IMG/VR virus record: IMGVR_UViG_3300024313_000004 | Span: 1-64,000 of that record | Direction: 5' to 3' (one strand) | Source: a virus | DNA: 64,000 bases | In this document: piece by piece, positions 28,059 to 50,159 of the stretch | How the letters are laid out: every line of letters starts with the position of its first letter | How positions within the stretch are numbered: the first letter of the stretch is position 1 | Notes under the pieces: model-generated | Told to the model about the DNA's origin: nothing | What the model saw: only the letters and a program-made list of their open reading frames with translations | The model's database searches: none | Program-made: the position numbers and the translations under genes

Positions 28059-29528
28059 TCATTTATATTTTTTTATAAAGTCATCATCGATATCGTCATC
28101 AGGTGTTATATCACAAGCTTTCTTATATGTACCGTCTGATAATAATATTTCAAAGTTAGATTTAAACTCAATTTCATAGTCACCAAAATTAAGTATAGTA
28201 TATTCAACCTTCTCTTTGGTTATTTCCATCTGTTTCTTTATTTCTTCCCTTTTTCTACCCTTTACTTCACCATCTATATAAAAGAATTCTTTATCTGGTA
28301 TTTCATTTTTAAGTTTATCAAAAATTCTTTGACCATTTTCTATTGTGTGAAAAAGTAATAAGGTATTATTTGTACACTTCTGTACAATGTTTCTTATAAA
28401 ATCTAACCTCTTATCCGATTGGTGTATAAATCTTTTCTCAAAATCGAATGCTGCTTTACCATCTCCACTTTTTCTAACAAGTTTTAATCTATCGTTAAAT
28501 TCACTGTGGTTATGATTCATTAAAACAACTCTAATATCCATCGGAGTAATTATACCCTTTTTCTTTAACTCATCTGCACTCACTTCTGTTATTTTTGGAC
28601 CTAAAACAGATTGTATTGTTAGTATTTCACAAGTATCTTCTAATGGAAATGTACCAGAAACACCAAATCTACAGTAAGCATTCCCAAAAGTATATTCTAA
28701 TATTTTAGTAATAGTTTTTGCTTTTGCACCATGTGCCTCATCTGTCGCGATTGTGTGAAATTGCTCGAAGAAATCTTTAGGCCATTTTTCGAGTGATTGA
28801 TATGTACCAATATAGATATTTGGATTTTCGGTACCTGAGAACTTTCTAGGTCTATCTGACATTACTTCTTCGACTCTTGTTATACAAGGTATGTGACCTG
28901 ATGATAATTCTGTTGTATTTTTTTCTTTCATTTCTAAAAGATTATTTATACCATAATTATATTCTATAATATTATCATAGAATTGTGTTACAAGTGTTAT
29001 AGATGGAACAATGATAAGTATCTTAGCATCTGGTTCTATATTTAGAAATGTATAGAACATTACTATGGATATAATAAGTGATTTACCACCTGATGTTGCA
29101 ACTTCTGCCATACAATATCTATTCTTTAGTATTTTATATGCCGCTTCTACTTGGTGATCATATGGCATAAATGGTACCCATTCTCCTTCTTTATTTTTAA
29201 CTTTATGTGTTTTGAAAAAATCTTTACAGAAGTCTTTTACTTTCTCTAAAGTAACATCTCTGTTTATCGGGAAATCTAATTTATTTTCTAATATAAAAGG
29301 CATTTCAATTTCTTTACAACCTCTCATTGCCTCTTTCCATAGACCTAGATTTATTCTACCATTCTTAAAGAATGTAATGTTTCCATCCCATGCACCAACT
29401 TTAACTGCTGGGTGATATCTCCAACCTTTTACCTTTCGTGTAAGCCAAAGTTGCATTTGGTGATATTCGATTCTTGTTGCATCCGATACTACTATTTCTT
29501 CTGTCTCTTTATCATATCTAAATTTCAT
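28059..29528 (-). CDS. uvsW: UvsW-like DNA helicase, N-terminal fragment with Hint-like tail, 489 aa
   Basis: The order of elements is: a UvsW-type N-terminal domain (LWLTRKVKGWRYHPAVKVGA), Walker A in ATSGGKSLIISI, Walker B in IATDEAHGAKA, motif III in FGVSGTFPLE, and a helicase-2 start LLLFHTIENGQRIF with YIDGEVKGRKREEIKKQMEI. UvsW-type helicases unwind branched and R-loop DNA at replication and recombination. After ITKE (about residue 434) the helicase sequence stops and a tail reads FEILLSDGTYKKACDITPDD, which resembles the Hint fold of inteins. Motifs V and VI are on the separate fragment at 26353. Confidence 0.8.
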   Translation of the reverse strand: MKFRYDKETEEIVVSDATRIEYHQMQLWLTRKVKGWRYHPAVKVGAWDGNITFFKNGRINLGLWKEAMRGCKEIEMPFILENKLDFPINRDVTLEKVKDFCKDFFKTHKVKNKEGEWVPFMPYDHQVEAAYKILKNRYCMAEVATSGGKSLIISIVMFYTFLNIEPDAKILIIVPSITLVTQFYDNIIEYNYGINNLLEMKEKNTTELSSGHIPCITRVEEVMSDRPRKFSGTENPNIYIGTYQSLEKWPKDFFEQFHTIATDEAHGAKAKTITKILEYTFGNAYCRFGVSGTFPLEDTCEILTIQSVLGPKITEVSADELKKKGIITPMDIRVVLMNHNHSEFNDRLKLVRKSGDGKAAFDFEKRFIHQSDKRLDFIRNIVQKCTNNTLLLFHTIENGQRIFDKLKNEIPDKEFFYIDGEVKGRKREEIKKQMEITKEKVEYTILNFGDYEIEFKSNFEILLSDGTYKKACDITPDDDIDDDFIKKYK

Positions 29529-41430: not shown

Positions 41431-42798
41431 TTATATACCTCCAAAGCCATTGAATATATCCATTACGACTGACAATCTCTCAGTTATTTCTGGCATTCCC
41501 AACGGTTCGATAATCTTATTTATCGGTGCCAAAATACACTTAGCGAATTGAATATCATAATTTATTTCAGGTGCAATCTCAATAGGATAAGAACCTCTGA
41601 TATATGCAAATATATCACCGTTATGTGTATCTTTACAATAATAATATTTTATCTTTGTTCCTGATTTTATAAACTCATATTTTGTTTGTAATAGTTTATT
41701 TTGATTTAATAAGTAATTATGATAAGCACTTGCCTTAACTGCAAAGTGTGCTCCATTTACAAACTTTAATGGTAATGATTTATCGTCAATTACTTTAGCA
41801 TCATAGTTCGAACAAGAAGATTGCATCGCGATATCGTCGATATCTGCTAACTCAAATTCTTTACGTAATGCTTTTATGAGTTTAAGTAAATCTTTGATGT
41901 TGAATGTATTTGAATTCTCAAATAAATATTTAACAATATTGATAATTTTCTCCCTAGCGAAAAGTGGTGTTGATGATCTAACAAGTTCCACTCCTTTTGG
42001 GTATAAGTATGATAATCTTTCATAAGGTATACCATCTTCAAAAGAAACATGTTGTATGTATTTCTTCTTAGCCAGAGATATAATAGATTCTGATATTCTT
42101 TCTAACTCAAAATCTTCTTTATTATCTACTCCAAATCCTGCAGCATAATCTTCTAAACACTGTTTGAAATATCCACCATATCTGTAATGGTCCATTCCGT
42201 GTATATAGTCTACTTCTCTTGACCAGTTCCATTTTACATCACAGGTAAGAGAACCACTTGAAACTAAGTTCATAAAATCTCTATCTTTTATGAATAAACC
42301 ATCTACAATTACCATTTCATAGTCCATTGTTAAAAGCTTTTCAAAGTCATTATAGTTTTCTGCACCACCAAGATAATTTGGATTATCAGTATTGATTTTT
42401 TTTGGTGATAAAACGATAAATTTCTTATCAATCTCACTTAATGATTTTGGATTTAGAAATAAATTCTCCCATTCTGAATGTTCTATTGCAGGTAGGAATG
42501 ATACAAATAAAGAATCGGTATCTGCATATATTGATACTGCTTCATTATTATTTATCTGTGTAACATTTCTAATACAAAGATTTTTATGGAATTCTTCATC
42601 TAAATGCCATTGATTATACCAATAATCTTCATTTACCATATCCATAGTTTTTGTTAAATCCCTTCCTTGTGCTGTAATTGTGCCTGCAACATGATTATTA
42701 TATAATATGAAGTAGGCTGTCGCGAATGCTCCGTAAGAGCCGTTCAGTACTAATTTTAGTCTTTTTGCCCCCAGTAAAAAATACCGGGGGCTAAACAA
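41431..42798 (-). CDS. Family B DNA polymerase, C-terminal part (split), ~440 aa
   Basis: Motif B is KLVLNGSYGAFATAYF (K-x3-N-x2-YG; canonical NSxYG has Ser where this has Gly), followed by a motif C-like YADTDSLFVSFLP with the catalytic Asp pair region. The C-terminal thumb region follows (LYPKGVELVRSSTPLFARE). Motif A and the 3'-5' exonuclease are absent and are not found in this window. The frame opens only at a TTG (42798). The residues before KLVLN are not polymerase-like and correspond to the inserted 40-nt element. The upstream continuation is the 35-codon ORF at 42791-42898. Confidence 0.8.
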   Translation of the reverse strand: MFSPRYFLLGAKRLKLVLNGSYGAFATAYFILYNNHVAGTITAQGRDLTKTMDMVNEDYWYNQWHLDEEFHKNLCIRNVTQINNNEAVSIYADTDSLFVSFLPAIEHSEWENLFLNPKSLSEIDKKFIVLSPKKINTDNPNYLGGAENYNDFEKLLTMDYEMVIVDGLFIKDRDFMNLVSSGSLTCDVKWNWSREVDYIHGMDHYRYGGYFKQCLEDYAAGFGVDNKEDFELERISESIISLAKKKYIQHVSFEDGIPYERLSYLYPKGVELVRSSTPLFAREKIINIVKYLFENSNTFNIKDLLKLIKALRKEFELADIDDIAMQSSCSNYDAKVIDDKSLPLKFVNGAHFAVKASAYHNYLLNQNKLLQTKYEFIKSGTKIKYYYCKDTHNGDIFAYIRGSYPIEIAPEINYDIQFAKCILAPINKIIEPLGMPEITERLSVVMDIFNGFGGI

Positions 42799-42978: not shown

Positions 42979-44082
42979 ATGGTAAAGGAGAAAGAAGTTT
43001 TAATTAAAATAAACATTAGAAATAGAGTTCATTTTGAAAGATTGGGGTATTCTATTGATGATGAGATATATGTTTCGGTTGTTGATTTGTTACCTGGTTC
43101 TAAATTTAAAGTCACTGCAATTTGTAAAATTTGTGAATCAGAAAATATACTACCATATAGTAAATATCTGGTAAATAAAAACAGAAATGGTAAAAATTAC
43201 TATTCTTGCTTTCGTTGTAAAACACATGTTAAGGAAAAAACTTGTATGGAAAGATATGGTGTAAAATCATATTCAATGACTAATGAATTTAGGGTATCAG
43301 AAAGTATAAAATGGAGAGGTATTAAAAAGGGTGGAGATAAAGGTGAAAAAACAATGTTGGAAAGGTATGGTGTAACATCATATTTTAAAACCGATAAGAG
43401 TAAAGAATATAATAGTAAATGGATGTCATCTGATGAGTTTAAAGAGAAGTCTAAGAGGACGATGTTGGAAAGATATGGAGTAGATCACTATTCAAAATCA
43501 AGTAAATTCAAAGAGTATATATCCTTAAATAAGGATCATATAGTTAATAAAATTAAAGAAACGTTTATTAATAAATATGGTGTGGATAACGCATTTAAAT
43601 TAGGAAGTTATAAAAAGAAAATGTTAGATTGTAGAGATAGTATTGAATGTAGTAAAAGGGAAACTTGTATGGAAAGGTATGGTGTGGATAATGTATCAAA
43701 AGTGGATATTATTAAAGAAAAGAGGAAAAAAACATTATTAGGTAATGGTCAAATTGTACCGGATGATAAAATAACCTCCTGGGAACTTTATAAAAAAAAT
43801 GTTAGAAATATGACTAAACGGAATAAAAAAATACTATATGAAGTATGGAACGGATTTGACTATTATGATAATGAATTTATTAAAGGTTATCTATCTCATA
43901 CACATACACACCGGTTTTATCCGACGATTGATCATAAAACTTCGGTATATTTTGGGTTTATAAATAAAATAGATCCAAATATAATTGGATCTATTGAAAA
44001 TTTATGCATAACCAAAAGGTTCATAAATTCAACTAAATCTAAAATGTGTGAAGAAGAGTTTTTAAAAATATTAAAGTCTTAA
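42979..44082 (+). CDS. Homing-endonuclease-like protein with zinc ribbon, ERYGV repeats and HNH-like end, 367 aa
   Basis: A zinc-ribbon (CKICESE ... CFRCKTH) is followed by five repeats of the form T-x-x-x-R/K-Y-G-V (CMERYGVKSY, MLERYGVTSY, MLERYGVDHY, FINKYGVDNA, CMERYGVDNV), as in DNA-recognition regions of phage homing nucleases. The C-terminus has an HNH-like arrangement (FYPTIDHKTSVYFGFINKI, IGSIENLCITKRFINSTKSK). It lies between the two halves of a replication-gene neighbourhood, facing the polymerase fragment and ending 1 bp from the clamp stop. It is probably responsible for splitting the polymerase gene. Confidence 0.7.
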   Translation: MVKEKEVLIKINIRNRVHFERLGYSIDDEIYVSVVDLLPGSKFKVTAICKICESENILPYSKYLVNKNRNGKNYYSCFRCKTHVKEKTCMERYGVKSYSMTNEFRVSESIKWRGIKKGGDKGEKTMLERYGVTSYFKTDKSKEYNSKWMSSDEFKEKSKRTMLERYGVDHYSKSSKFKEYISLNKDHIVNKIKETFINKYGVDNAFKLGSYKKKMLDCRDSIECSKRETCMERYGVDNVSKVDIIKEKRKKTLLGNGQIVPDDKITSWELYKKNVRNMTKRNKKILYEVWNGFDYYDNEFIKGYLSHTHTHRFYPTIDHKTSVYFGFINKIDPNIIGSIENLCITKRFINSTKSKMCEEEFLKILKS

Positions 44083-46480: not shown

Positions 46481-47551
46481 TTATACGTTATATTTAAAGT
46501 TATGATTCTCTTCTATATTAAGAAGTGTTTGATAAATCAACTTAATAACATTCTTAACATCTTCTTTATGTACGGTCTCCACCGTAGTATGCATGTAACG
46601 AAGTGGTAATGAAATCAATACAGAAGGAACTCCACCATTTGAATATGCGAATGCGTCTGTATCTGTTCCTGTGGATGTTGAACTGGCTGCTAACTGGAAA
46701 GGAATTTTATTTTTATCTGCAACATCCAGTACTAATTTTCTTAGTTTGTTATGAACAGCTGGTGCTCTTGTGATAACACCACCATTACCTGCAATAAATT
46801 CACCTTCTTTACTTGGAGTATAACAAGGTGATGATGTTTCATGACAAACATCTGTAATTATCGCTACATTTGGTTTAATTGTTTGTGTAATCATTTGTGC
46901 ACCTCTTAGTCCAATTTCTTCTTGAACAGAATTTACTATATAAAGTTTGAATGGTAATTCTTTACCTTTCTCTTTTAGCTTTCTGGCAACTTCTGCAATC
47001 ATGAATCCACCGATTCTATTATCTAGTGCTCTTCCTGTGTAGTAATCAGTTCCAAGTTTCATAAATTGATCTTTGAAAGTAATTACGGTACCAATATTGA
47101 TACCCATTTGTATAACTTCTTCCTTACTTGATGCACCAACATCAATAAAGATAGAATCTAAATCCGCTTCTTTCTTTCTATAAGAAATATGAATTGCTGG
47201 GTGTCCAAAGATACCATCTACTGGACCTTTATCACCCCAAAGTGTAACTCTCATAGATGGTGCGATTGTCGCATCTGATCCACCATTTCTAATTACTTTG
47301 ATATAACCTTTTGAGTCAATGTGGTTTACCATCCAACTGATTTCATCGCAATGTGCTTCAATTACTACTTTAAAGTCTGAGTCCATATTACCCATAACAC
47401 CATATGCGGTTCCATAGTTATCTAGTTCTACTTTATCAACATATTTAGAGATGTGATCCATCCACATTTTCTGACCACCCAATTCGTATTCGAATCCAGT
47501 TGGTGCATTACTATTTAGGTACTTTTCTAAAAATTTTTCGTCTATTTTCAT
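46481..47551 (-). CDS. M42-family metallo-aminopeptidase, 356 aa
   Basis: M42 motifs are present: IEAHCDEISWMV (metal His), DYYTGRALDNRIGGF (bridging Asp), SVQEEIGLRGAQ (catalytic Glu pair), ITDVCHETS and the final YMHTTVETVH (metal His). The usual PDZ-like insert is also present (APSMRVTLWGD ... HISYRKKEAD). These enzymes remove N-terminal residues from peptides, in large tetrahedral assemblies. A phage copy is unusual. Possible roles are trimming peptides released by the phage ClpP or scavenging amino acids. Confidence 0.85.
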   Translation of the reverse strand: MKIDEKFLEKYLNSNAPTGFEYELGGQKMWMDHISKYVDKVELDNYGTAYGVMGNMDSDFKVVIEAHCDEISWMVNHIDSKGYIKVIRNGGSDATIAPSMRVTLWGDKGPVDGIFGHPAIHISYRKKEADLDSIFIDVGASSKEEVIQMGINIGTVITFKDQFMKLGTDYYTGRALDNRIGGFMIAEVARKLKEKGKELPFKLYIVNSVQEEIGLRGAQMITQTIKPNVAIITDVCHETSSPCYTPSKEGEFIAGNGGVITRAPAVHNKLRKLVLDVADKNKIPFQLAASSTSTGTDTDAFAYSNGGVPSVLISLPLRYMHTTVETVHKEDVKNVIKLIYQTLLNIEENHNFKYNV

Positions 47552-47654: not shown

Positions 47655-48026
47655 ATGAAATTTAGATTAAAAGAAGATTGGTATATTTATAACTTTTTTG
47701 ATAAAGTAAAAATCTATGATAAGGGAGAAGTATTTTTACCTGACGATGATGGTAGATATATGATGAAGGATTTTGATGGTAAAGAAATGTTCCTAAGGTT
47801 TGATGATATGTTAAGTGTTAAAGGTATTGGTGAAGATGGTTTACCTGGAGAACCAATATTTGAGGTAATTGATGAACAAGAGATTGAGTTACTTGTTGAG
47901 GAAGTTCCTGAGGATAAAGATAATGAGATAAAGAACTGGCGAATACAGTTGGATGTTAAAACATCTTTGAAAAATCTTAAAAAGATAGAAATTTTTATTA
48001 AAGAAAATATTAAAGAAATGTTATGA
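47655..48026 (+). CDS. Hypothetical protein, 123 aa
   Basis: This is an acidic protein with a beta-rich N-terminus (RLKEDWYIYNFFDKVKIYDK) and a helical C-terminus (KTSLKNLKKIEIFIKENIKE). It is joined to the aminotransferase gene by an ATGA overlap and may be functionally linked to it. No family is recognised. Confidence 0.55.
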   Translation: MKFRLKEDWYIYNFFDKVKIYDKGEVFLPDDDGRYMMKDFDGKEMFLRFDDMLSVKGIGEDGLPGEPIFEVIDEQEIELLVEEVPEDKDNEIKNWRIQLDVKTSLKNLKKIEIFIKENIKEML

Positions 48027-49108
48027 ATATAAATACTGCGAATGTGAGTTATTCTTCCATAGTACAAATAGGGGAAAATATAACCAAAATTGAAAAAGAA
48101 ACTGGTGAAAAATATCTAAAACTACACCGAGGTGTAATGGATGTTACTACATTAGATATTGATTCTTTAAAATTGGATCTTAATCTAAATAATACAAAGA
48201 CTCAACAATATAGTGGTAATGATGGTAGTTTAGAATTGATTGATACTATAAAAGAAGAGTTTGGTTTAGAAGGTCATGTCGTTATGACACCTGGTGGAAT
48301 GGCAGGTTTAGATTTGATTATAAACTCTTTAGGTGACCAAACTATCTGGATCCCTAACTATCATTGGGGTTCTTGGAATAAGATACTTACAACACATGGA
48401 AAGGATATTAAAACATTTGATGATCTTAACATTGATGATTTCATGCCTAAAGATGGTGTGGTTATGCTTTGTTATCCATCAAACCCTACTGGTTATTGTC
48501 CAGATTCTGAGATTATTAAAAGTTTCCTTATAAGAGCTAGAGAAGCGGGTGTTACGGTTATATTAGATTTACCATATTACTATCTTTTTAATGATGTAAA
48601 TGATGGTTTATCTGATTTCTTTTTTGATAATGTTATTTTAGTATCTTCTTTTTCTAAATCTATTGGTCTTTCAGGATATCGAGTTGGATTTATATCAACT
48701 AAAAATGAAGAATTGTATCAGACACTTAGAATAAGGTCATTATATAAATATAATTCAATTTCAAATTTACCACAATTTATAATAAATGAACTTCTTAAAG
48801 AAAAGACTGCTATAACTGAATATAGAAAGAAGACTGTTGATAGTATCAAAAAAAATATAATGGTTCTTGAGATGCACGGACTTCTATTTGATGAATATCC
48901 AGTATTACCAACTGGTCCATTTGCGGTTGTAAATGTTTCATATGATGAATTATTGAAATATAAAATATCTAGTGTACCTTTAAGTAAGTTTACTTTGAAT
49001 AAACAACTGAAACATGAAAATTGTAGTAGGATATCGGTGGCGGTTGATCATAAAGTGTTCTGGGAGTATTTTGAGAAAATGTTTGTAAATGAAAAAACCA
49101 CTTTTTAA
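48023..49108 (+). CDS. PLP-dependent aminotransferase (class I/II fold), 361 aa
   Basis: The PLP fold signatures are in order: VVMTPGGMAGLDLIINSLG (cofactor-phosphate loop), MLCYPSNPTGYCPDSEI (PLP-contacting Asn), VILDLPYYYLF (Asp to the pyridine N), and SSFSKSIGLSGYRVGF with the lysine that forms the Schiff base. A substrate-binding Arg is likely in NCSRISVAVD. The product is a complete enzyme. It may modify a nucleotide or sugar, or make a metabolite; the substrate is unknown. Phage copies are uncommon. Confidence 0.85.
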   Translation: MNINTANVSYSSIVQIGENITKIEKETGEKYLKLHRGVMDVTTLDIDSLKLDLNLNNTKTQQYSGNDGSLELIDTIKEEFGLEGHVVMTPGGMAGLDLIINSLGDQTIWIPNYHWGSWNKILTTHGKDIKTFDDLNIDDFMPKDGVVMLCYPSNPTGYCPDSEIIKSFLIRAREAGVTVILDLPYYYLFNDVNDGLSDFFFDNVILVSSFSKSIGLSGYRVGFISTKNEELYQTLRIRSLYKYNSISNLPQFIINELLKEKTAITEYRKKTVDSIKKNIMVLEMHGLLFDEYPVLPTGPFAVVNVSYDELLKYKISSVPLSKFTLNKQLKHENCSRISVAVDHKVFWEYFEKMFVNEKTTF

Positions 49109-49131: not shown

Positions 49132-49278
49132 ATGAAGCATTTAAAATCTTATAAGTTATTTGAAAATTTGGGATCGCTACCAGTTAAGAGATTTCCTACT
49201 GGTCCGGCAATTCATTTTAATTATTTAGAGGGTATACTAAAATCGGCTGGTATCGATATGTATAGAGATTCGAACTGA
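49132..49278 (+). CDS. Short leader-bearing ORF, 48 aa, possibly truncated by the adjacent cassette
   Basis: It begins MKHLKSYKLFENLGSLP, a clear leader, but ends after 48 codons at a TGA. The same frame continues beyond the TGA as WNVYKGITYEGMTSF to a TAA at 49323-49325, which still looks coding. The cassette repeat starts around 49280, so the gene was probably longer before the methylase cassette inserted. Readthrough of the TGA is an alternative. Confidence 0.45.
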   Translation: MKHLKSYKLFENLGSLPVKRFPTGPAIHFNYLEGILKSAGIDMYRDSN

Positions 49279-49279
49279 T

Positions 49280-49352
49280 GGAACGTTTATAAAGGAATAA
49301 CATACGAGGGTATGACATCGTTTTAATGTGCTATACACGTTGTTAGCCACAG
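49280..49352 (+). repeat. Cassette-boundary repeat (integron attC-like), upstream copy
   Basis: The left arm GGAACGTTTATA (49280-49291) is near-complementary to the right arm TATACACGTT (49332-49341), followed by GTTGTTAGCCAC (49339-49350). The same palindromic core appears inverted at 50083-50094 behind the methylase gene. From memory, repeats with a CTAACAACGTGTATA / TATACACGTTGTTAG pair flank gene cassettes in many Bacteroidota genomes. Confidence 0.5.
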
Positions 49353-49388
49353 TAATTTAACAGATAAAATTAAATAGAATTAAATAGA

Positions 49389-50090
49389 ATGAAATACTTA
49401 GGAAGTAAAAATAGAATAGCAAAACACATATTACCATTAATGCTTGAAGGTAGAACCAATGAAACTTGGGTAGAGCCTTTTGTTGGGGGTGCTAATATTA
49501 TTGATAAAGTAAAAGGGAATAGAATAGGTGCAGACAAGAATGATTATTTGATACATCTATTTAAGTCATTACAGAAAGGATACGAGCCACCTAAAGAAGT
49601 TAGTAAAGATTTCTTTTTTGAAGTTAAGGCAAATGAAGATAAGTACCCTAAAGAGTTGTATGCTTATTTAGGTTTTGGATTAACTTTTGGTTGTGAATGG
49701 TGGGGCAGTTTTAGAAGGGATAATACAGGTAAAAGAAAATATGACTTAGAAGCATATAATAATGTGATGAAACAAGACTTAAACGGTATTAATTTTATTT
49801 GTAGTGACTATAAAGATTTAGAGGTACCTAAAAATAGTATAATTTACTGCGACCCACCATACGAAGGTGTTAGAAAATATATCGGATTTAAGGATTTTAA
49901 CCACAATGATTTTTGGGAATGGTGTAGAATTAAGACAAAGGAAGGTCATAAGGTTTTTATTTCTGAATATAATGCTCCAATAGACTTTAAATGTATTTGG
50001 GAGAAAGAAATATCTGCAAGTGCAAATAACTCTATAAAAAACGGACAAGGTAAAAAAGCAACTGAGAAGCTATTTATGTATTGTGGCTAA
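49389..50090 (+). CDS. DNA adenine methyltransferase (D12/Dam class), 233 aa
   Basis: It has KYLGSKNRIAKHILPLM (N-terminal motif X of D12 enzymes), WVEPFVGGANIID (SAM-binding motif I) and SIIYCDPPYEGVRKY (catalytic DPPY). These methylate N6 of adenine. The stop codon TAA lies inside the repeat GTGGCTAACAAC at 50083. No cognate restriction enzyme is visible. It probably protects phage DNA or regulates transcription. Acquisition as a cassette from a Bacteroidota host is likely. Confidence 0.85.
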   Translation: MKYLGSKNRIAKHILPLMLEGRTNETWVEPFVGGANIIDKVKGNRIGADKNDYLIHLFKSLQKGYEPPKEVSKDFFFEVKANEDKYPKELYAYLGFGLTFGCEWWGSFRRDNTGKRKYDLEAYNNVMKQDLNGINFICSDYKDLEVPKNSIIYCDPPYEGVRKYIGFKDFNHNDFWEWCRIKTKEGHKVFISEYNAPIDFKCIWEKEISASANNSIKNGQGKKATEKLFMYCG

Positions 50091-50107
50091 CAACCATATA
50101 TACGTAC
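50083..50107 (+). repeat. Cassette-boundary repeat, downstream copy
   Basis: GTGGCTAACAAC (50083-50094) is the exact reverse complement of GTTGTTAGCCAC at 49339-49350 and contains the methylase stop. It is followed by CATATATACGTAC, which resembles the left arm of the upstream repeat. Confidence 0.55.
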
Positions 50108-50159
50108 TTTAACTAAAAATTAGATTATTATAAAGAAATTTAAAAAAAATAGTAAAATT

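Follow-up and report, generated by a model that had tools for sequence, protein, structure and literature searches.

Integrons are known as bacterial devices. Chromosomal integrons of the class 1/Vibrio type share with the phage family described below a tyrosine recombinase, an adjoining attI, an attC at the cassette end, crossover at G|TT and stepwise insertion at attI. They differ from it in that phage cassette genes read toward attI, and phage integrases are 267-268 amino acids (aa) long and score below the TIGR02249 cut-off. Integron-type arrays also occur in Flavobacteriaceae, within the Bacteroidota, a phylum listed as integron-bearing (PMC8618304). These arrays have the attC architecture and cassette-end rules of the phage family; their genes, however, are sense and lead away from the integrase, their recombinase is extended at the N-terminus by about 135 aa, and their contents are different.

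Integrons in phages have been reported as fragments or as captured host integrons (Qi et al. 2023, PMC9892861). That study, the only one on phage-encoded integrons found in our search (preprints and many subscription journals were outside it), contains the closest prior work, a CALIN in the Polaribacter phage P12002L. Like the locus described here, the P12002L CALIN consists of attC-flanked DNA-modification genes in a virulent flavobacterial phage, and IntI1 can recombine one of its attC sites with attI1 in E. coli (PMC9892861). It was thus already known that phages can contain integron parts, that phage CALINs include methyltransferases (MTases) and that IntI1 acts on an attC of P12002L. Qi et al. 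saw divergent attC directions in P12002L and proposed mosaicism; they reported no phage-type integrase, attI or consistent inverted polarity (PMC9892861). The host-trained model introduced below places all three P12002L attC sites antisense to their genes.

Here we examine an adenine methylase gene in a 64,000-nt stretch of viral DNA (the window), which forms positions 1 to 64,000 of the 134,595-bp record IMGVR_UViG_3300024313_000004. Very probably, a single integron-type cassette, with the methylase as its gene, was placed in an attI-like site by an IntI-like tyrosine recombinase, and it belongs to a phage-borne integron family of Bacteroidota phages. It also seems likely that Bacteroidota phages own a separate integron class, whose integrase is short and IntI-like, whose attI is conserved and whose cassettes are mirror images with genes reading toward attI; that this class is a working system by which unrelated phages exchange DNA-modification (anti-restriction) genes; and that the window methylase is part of this pool. 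In the literature searched, we found neither a phage-owned integrase/attI family nor the inverted gene polarity nor the cassette turnover in Freya phages described below. If the proposal is true, a phage-owned integron with gain and loss of cassettes would be a dedicated route by which phages trade anti-restriction genes, and would account for part of phage mosaicism.

The methylase cassette and its ends

The initial annotation had singled out two repeats as the marks of an integron-type cassette: GTTGTTAGCCAC at 49339-49350 and GTGGCTAACAAC at 50083-50094 (both given on the plus strand), with the methylase gene between them. The two are indeed exact inverses, and neither 12-mer has a third match in the window, even allowing two mismatches. 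The 9-mer GTGGCTAAC common to both occurs just these two times in the full 134,595-bp record. Read on the minus strand from 49350, the left repeat continues as the 19-mer GTGGCTAACAACGTGTATA. This 19-mer has exact matches in 44 bacterial genome stretches, all from Bacteroidota and nearly all from named Flavobacteriaceae/Flavobacteriales, as well as in four viral contigs, one of which is the same phage as the window. The 12-mer pair alone is weak evidence; the pair exceeds chance because GTGGCTAACAACGTGTATA recurs in Flavobacteriaceae/Bacteroidota genomes.

A covariance model (R1) built from 33 Flavobacteriaceae host attC sites has a sole match in the 134.6-kb record, on the minus strand at 49295-49348 (22.6 bits, E about 0.01); read on the plus strand, the same site scores only 8.4 bits. 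The parts of this attC, all on the minus strand, are R'' (49342-49348), a 3-nt spacer (49339-49341), L'' (49326-49338), L' (49310-49318) and R' (49295-49301). The left repeat corresponds to R'' plus the spacer, viewed from the opposite strand. The right repeat corresponds to the cassette start boundary (minus strand GTTAGCCACAAT) plus 3 nt of target, and the covariance model finds no attC to the right of it. Because the attC lies at the left on the minus strand and the right repeat is a boundary, the cassette spans 49301-50090 (790 bp), with the methylase antisense to it. The limits follow the G|TT rule seen in host arrays and Freya isolates, which puts the start boundary at 50090 and the attC end at 49301 in minus polarity. 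Both cassette ends can be seen directly: GTTAGCCAC and GTGGCTAAC match at 10 positions, and the start boundary is complementary to the cassette's own R'', as in host and phage cassettes. The attC match and the matching ends bear out an integron-type gene cassette.

Judged by its sequence, the attC, which lies at the end of the cassette and whose R and L boxes pair, is recognisable but weak and partly degenerate: its score is low and it folds weakly. It is identical at 37 of 38 nt to the attC of a viral contig (L117), after which the two diverge in the L'-R' spacer. Because of this partial degeneracy, the window copy of the cassette may now be fixed. CALINs are defined by at least two attC sites close together, and the phage record has one. 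Cassette genes are usually, though not by strict requirement, sense to attC polarity, and the window methylase is antisense. An attC-like palindrome had been proposed from the left repeat and the upstream GGAACGTTTATA; its folding is unremarkable (z -1.1 to -1.4), with 20-26 of 200 shuffles folding equally well. We also considered whether the methylase's attC might be the right repeat in truncated form and rejected this, as the spacer asymmetry and the covariance model place the attC at the left, on the minus strand. Nor did a hairpin target formed by joining the flanks reach significance (19 of 200 shuffles equal).

The exact 12-nt inverted repeats at both ends also suggest the terminal inverted repeats of a small transposon-like element. 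We regard this as highly improbable, since the element has no transposase and no target duplication, a full site stands at one end and a mere boundary at the other, and the repeat differs from cassette to cassette in relatives.

The cassette gene (49389-50090, plus strand) encodes a 233-aa D12-class N6-adenine DNA methyltransferase (Pfam PF02086, 64 bits) with FVGG and DPPY motifs. Its TAA stop codon lies inside the right repeat, as had been observed; that position, which had been taken as the expected mark of a captured cassette, is the cassette start boundary and lies outside the gene's own attC. The stretch from the attC to the methylase start (49342-49388, plus strand) is a leader common to other phage cassettes, with identities of 43/47 nt to L058, 29/30 to L047 and 39/43 to L049 (these matches overlap the attC site). 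The methylase and its cassette counterpart in P12002L share 61% identity; methylase relatives in P12002L, L058, L059 and L062 sit in the same antisense cassette arrangement, as does another D12 methylase in L047-L049. Counting relatives and other MTases, the arrangement is directly seen in at least six other viral contigs. Given its family and the content of the phage cassette pool, the methylase may shield phage DNA from host restriction.

Cassettes of Flavobacteriaceae hosts and of phages

Host sites take the form R'' (nnnnAAC), a 3-nt spacer, L'' (GTGTATA...), a variable loop, L' (...CATACAC), 5-6 nt and R' (GTTnnnn). Their arms covary: 77% of cells pair, with a score of 0.231 versus 0.109 when shuffled (0/500), and pairing drops to 23-42% with slid partners. 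Two column pairs are A.C in nearly every row; on the complementary strand these become T.G wobble pairs, which is what folding of the bottom strand would predict. The start of a host cassette matches its own end at the four variable core positions in 84% of cases, against 39% for shuffled partners, and the excess of matches persists to 17 nt. Many Flavobacteriaceae also have a subgroup of long sites that contain AAAACATAGCTATTATAGGC (L006, L015, L021, L024, L029, L038 and L043); those measured are about 195 bp long.

Next to most host arrays examined stands a tyrosine recombinase whose match to the integron-integrase model falls into two pieces. The statement that this type of repeat flanks cassettes in Bacteroidota chromosomes therefore proved sound: the recommended search of Bacteroidota genomes finds the repeat in arrays beside an IntI-like recombinase. 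P0001, the single host recombinase analysed over its whole length, reaches 170 bits (cut-off 265); the insert of roughly 50 residues that IntI4 (2A3V) has is missing from it. Recombinases beside host arrays (L080/L087 and others) have the N-terminal extension of about 135 aa noted above and are without the IntI-specific insert.

Host and phage cassettes differ sharply in gene polarity. Of 52 host cassettes, 51 have their longest ORF in the sense orientation, and the genes read away from the integrase. In a sequence scan, at least 80 viral stretches match TAACAACGTGTATA. Among the matches listed, the ORF touching the site is sense at 44 host loci and antisense at none, whereas at viral loci with both arms it is antisense at 24 and sense at none. 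The distinct phage cassettes from model matches give the same picture, with 47 antisense and 1 sense (p about 3e-26 versus the hosts). This inverted polarity raises the question of what determines, in integrons, which strand is chosen and how genes are expressed. Cassette content differs as well: DNA-modification enzymes (of the D12, N6_N4, MT-A70, C5 and Mom classes) make up 16 of the 21 phage cassette proteins tested (size at least 150 aa), compared with 0 of 20 host cassette products. Within a phage cassette the ends match, and the repeat varies between cassettes. The start/end match extends to about 25 nt, well past the R boxes, in the phage cassettes of L057/L072, L059 and L061.

The initial annotation had viewed the phage as a vehicle for a cassette picked up from a host chromosomal integron. 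The attC type, which is the same as in Flavobacteriaceae chromosomes, speaks for such a capture; the opposite polarities and contents of host and phage cassettes speak against it, and a search of 301 genomes of one family returned a single distant relative of the methylase, whose flanks are without the repeats. We consider it quite unlikely that the window holds a host cassette in transit. Phage cassettes form a pool of their own, in which the genes are inverted and most products serve DNA modification; some of these phages have their own integrase.

Phage integrases, attI and cassette turnover in Freya

Phage arrays L049 and L115 encode a recombinase of 267-268 aa that is 38-40% identical to the host recombinase. 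About 19 viral contigs, the longest of 362 kb, encode this phage integrase. Phage and host integrases separate, the phage ones as a single clade (100/99); with TIGR02249 the phage integrases score 143-153 bits, below the cut-off of 265 for an IntI. The IntI-specific insert is absent from the host homologue; the alignment of the phage protein with that homologue contains 7 gap positions. Directly upstream of nearly all phage integrases lies a conserved site, TAAC-TAYTATATAT, which abuts the first cassette boundary and is the attI. The covariance model finds attC in 14 of the roughly 19 integrase contigs (31 sites), always upstream of the integrase gene and on the other strand. The genes of phage integrons therefore read toward attI.

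The phage integrase family is also carried by the cultured Polaribacter phages Freya_1-10, so that cultured material for phage integrons exists. Records L244, L245 and L247-L256 are Freya isolates. In the seven isolates compared, the arrays just upstream of the integrase measure 465, 1307, 2209, 2681, 4505, 5100 and 5407 nt, and the parts common to isolates are 98.7-100% identical. The array is joined to attI with a 3-nt overlap, AAC (GTT in attC polarity), in Freya_1, 2, 5 and 9. The array of Freya_8 is that of Freya_10 with one internal cassette of 902 bp removed, the overlap being 4 nt. Natural cassette gain and loss are thus seen directly, as stepwise insertion at attI and precise excision. 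Because the gains at attI and the one loss are exact and cut within AAC/GTT, the system works in nature. The host-trained model finds weak sites alone in Freya (28.3 and 23.6 bits), so Freya attC sites are more diverged. The paper describing the isolation of these phages read the integrase as indicating a temperate lifestyle, with no mention of integrons or cassettes (Bartlau et al. 2021, PMC8776804); the cassette turnover apparently went unnoticed there.

The Freya junctions also bear on another explanation of the window repeats, in which they are patches of homology and modules are swapped by homologous recombination at linkers, with no integrase involved for this copy. Such swapping would fit the leader and site common to several phages, the record without an integrase and the fact that phage recombinases are common. 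We nonetheless hold it to be unlikely: the Freya junctions have 3-4 nt in common (AAC/CAAC), which is far too short and always at the core, and the ends, though alike within a cassette, are not the same from one cassette to the next.

In the mechanism that we propose instead, an IntI-like tyrosine recombinase would join the cassette at G|TT into an attI-like site of the phage. Cassettes of the family carry Flavobacteriaceae-type attC sites, with genes antisense to attC polarity and reading toward attI; many family phages encode their own integrase directly beyond attI, and the pool is rich in DNA-modification genes. By analogy with Freya, the window cassette would have entered by the same reaction, its integrase having since been lost or having acted in trans, supplied by the host or by a phage infecting the same cell. 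The window cassette itself is a candidate for mobility.

The right junction and neighbouring genes

At the right junction, the sequence TAACAACCATATATACGTACTTT (50088-50110, plus strand) is attI-like, agreeing with the attI of L233 at 13 of 14 nt, and no integrase follows it. The junction sequence TAACAACCATATATAC resembles phage attI, a match of moderate strength (p about 0.004 given TAAC) that 6 of the 1357 TAAC sites in the record equal in score. On this resemblance, the right junction is probably the remnant of a phage attI. A higher-scoring attI match at 102939 (minus strand) coincides with ORFs of the opposite strand, with no integrase beside it; we took it as chance. Searches with TIGR02249, P0001 and the phage integrase profile found no integrase in the record, which may be incomplete or a fragment. 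As far as this record goes, the window phage carries no complete integron, in which an integrase gene stands beside attI.

Alternatively, the right junction could be a non-classical attG insertion. Cassettes insert at such sites (Loot et al. 2024, as cited in PMC12901181), and the window likewise has a single cassette away from an integrase; the difference is that the window junction resembles phage attI.

If the cassette was inserted here, the empty site in relatives would read GGAATAA|CAACCATATATACG. The suggested search of relatives gave no clean example: L051-L053 lack 49.1-50.5 kb and have a different gene there. Truncation of a leader gene by the cassette had also been suggested and could not be demonstrated, because the 48-aa ORF concerned (49132-49278) ends 22 bp before the boundary and its nearest relatives lack the entire stretch.

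Genes of metabolic appearance lie close to the cassette: a class I/II aminotransferase (48023-49108, plus strand; Pfam) and an ORF that by eye is M42-peptidase-like (46481-47551, minus strand). Farther to the left, two minus-strand ORFs may contain an intein or intron. One is a helicase ORF (28059-29528) that ends in an intein-like stretch, and the other is a DNA polymerase ORF (41431-42798) with the C-terminal part of its family alone (phrog_262, 516-839). The latter is adjoined, in opposite orientation, by a 367-aa ORF with MLERYGV repeats (42979-44082, plus strand).
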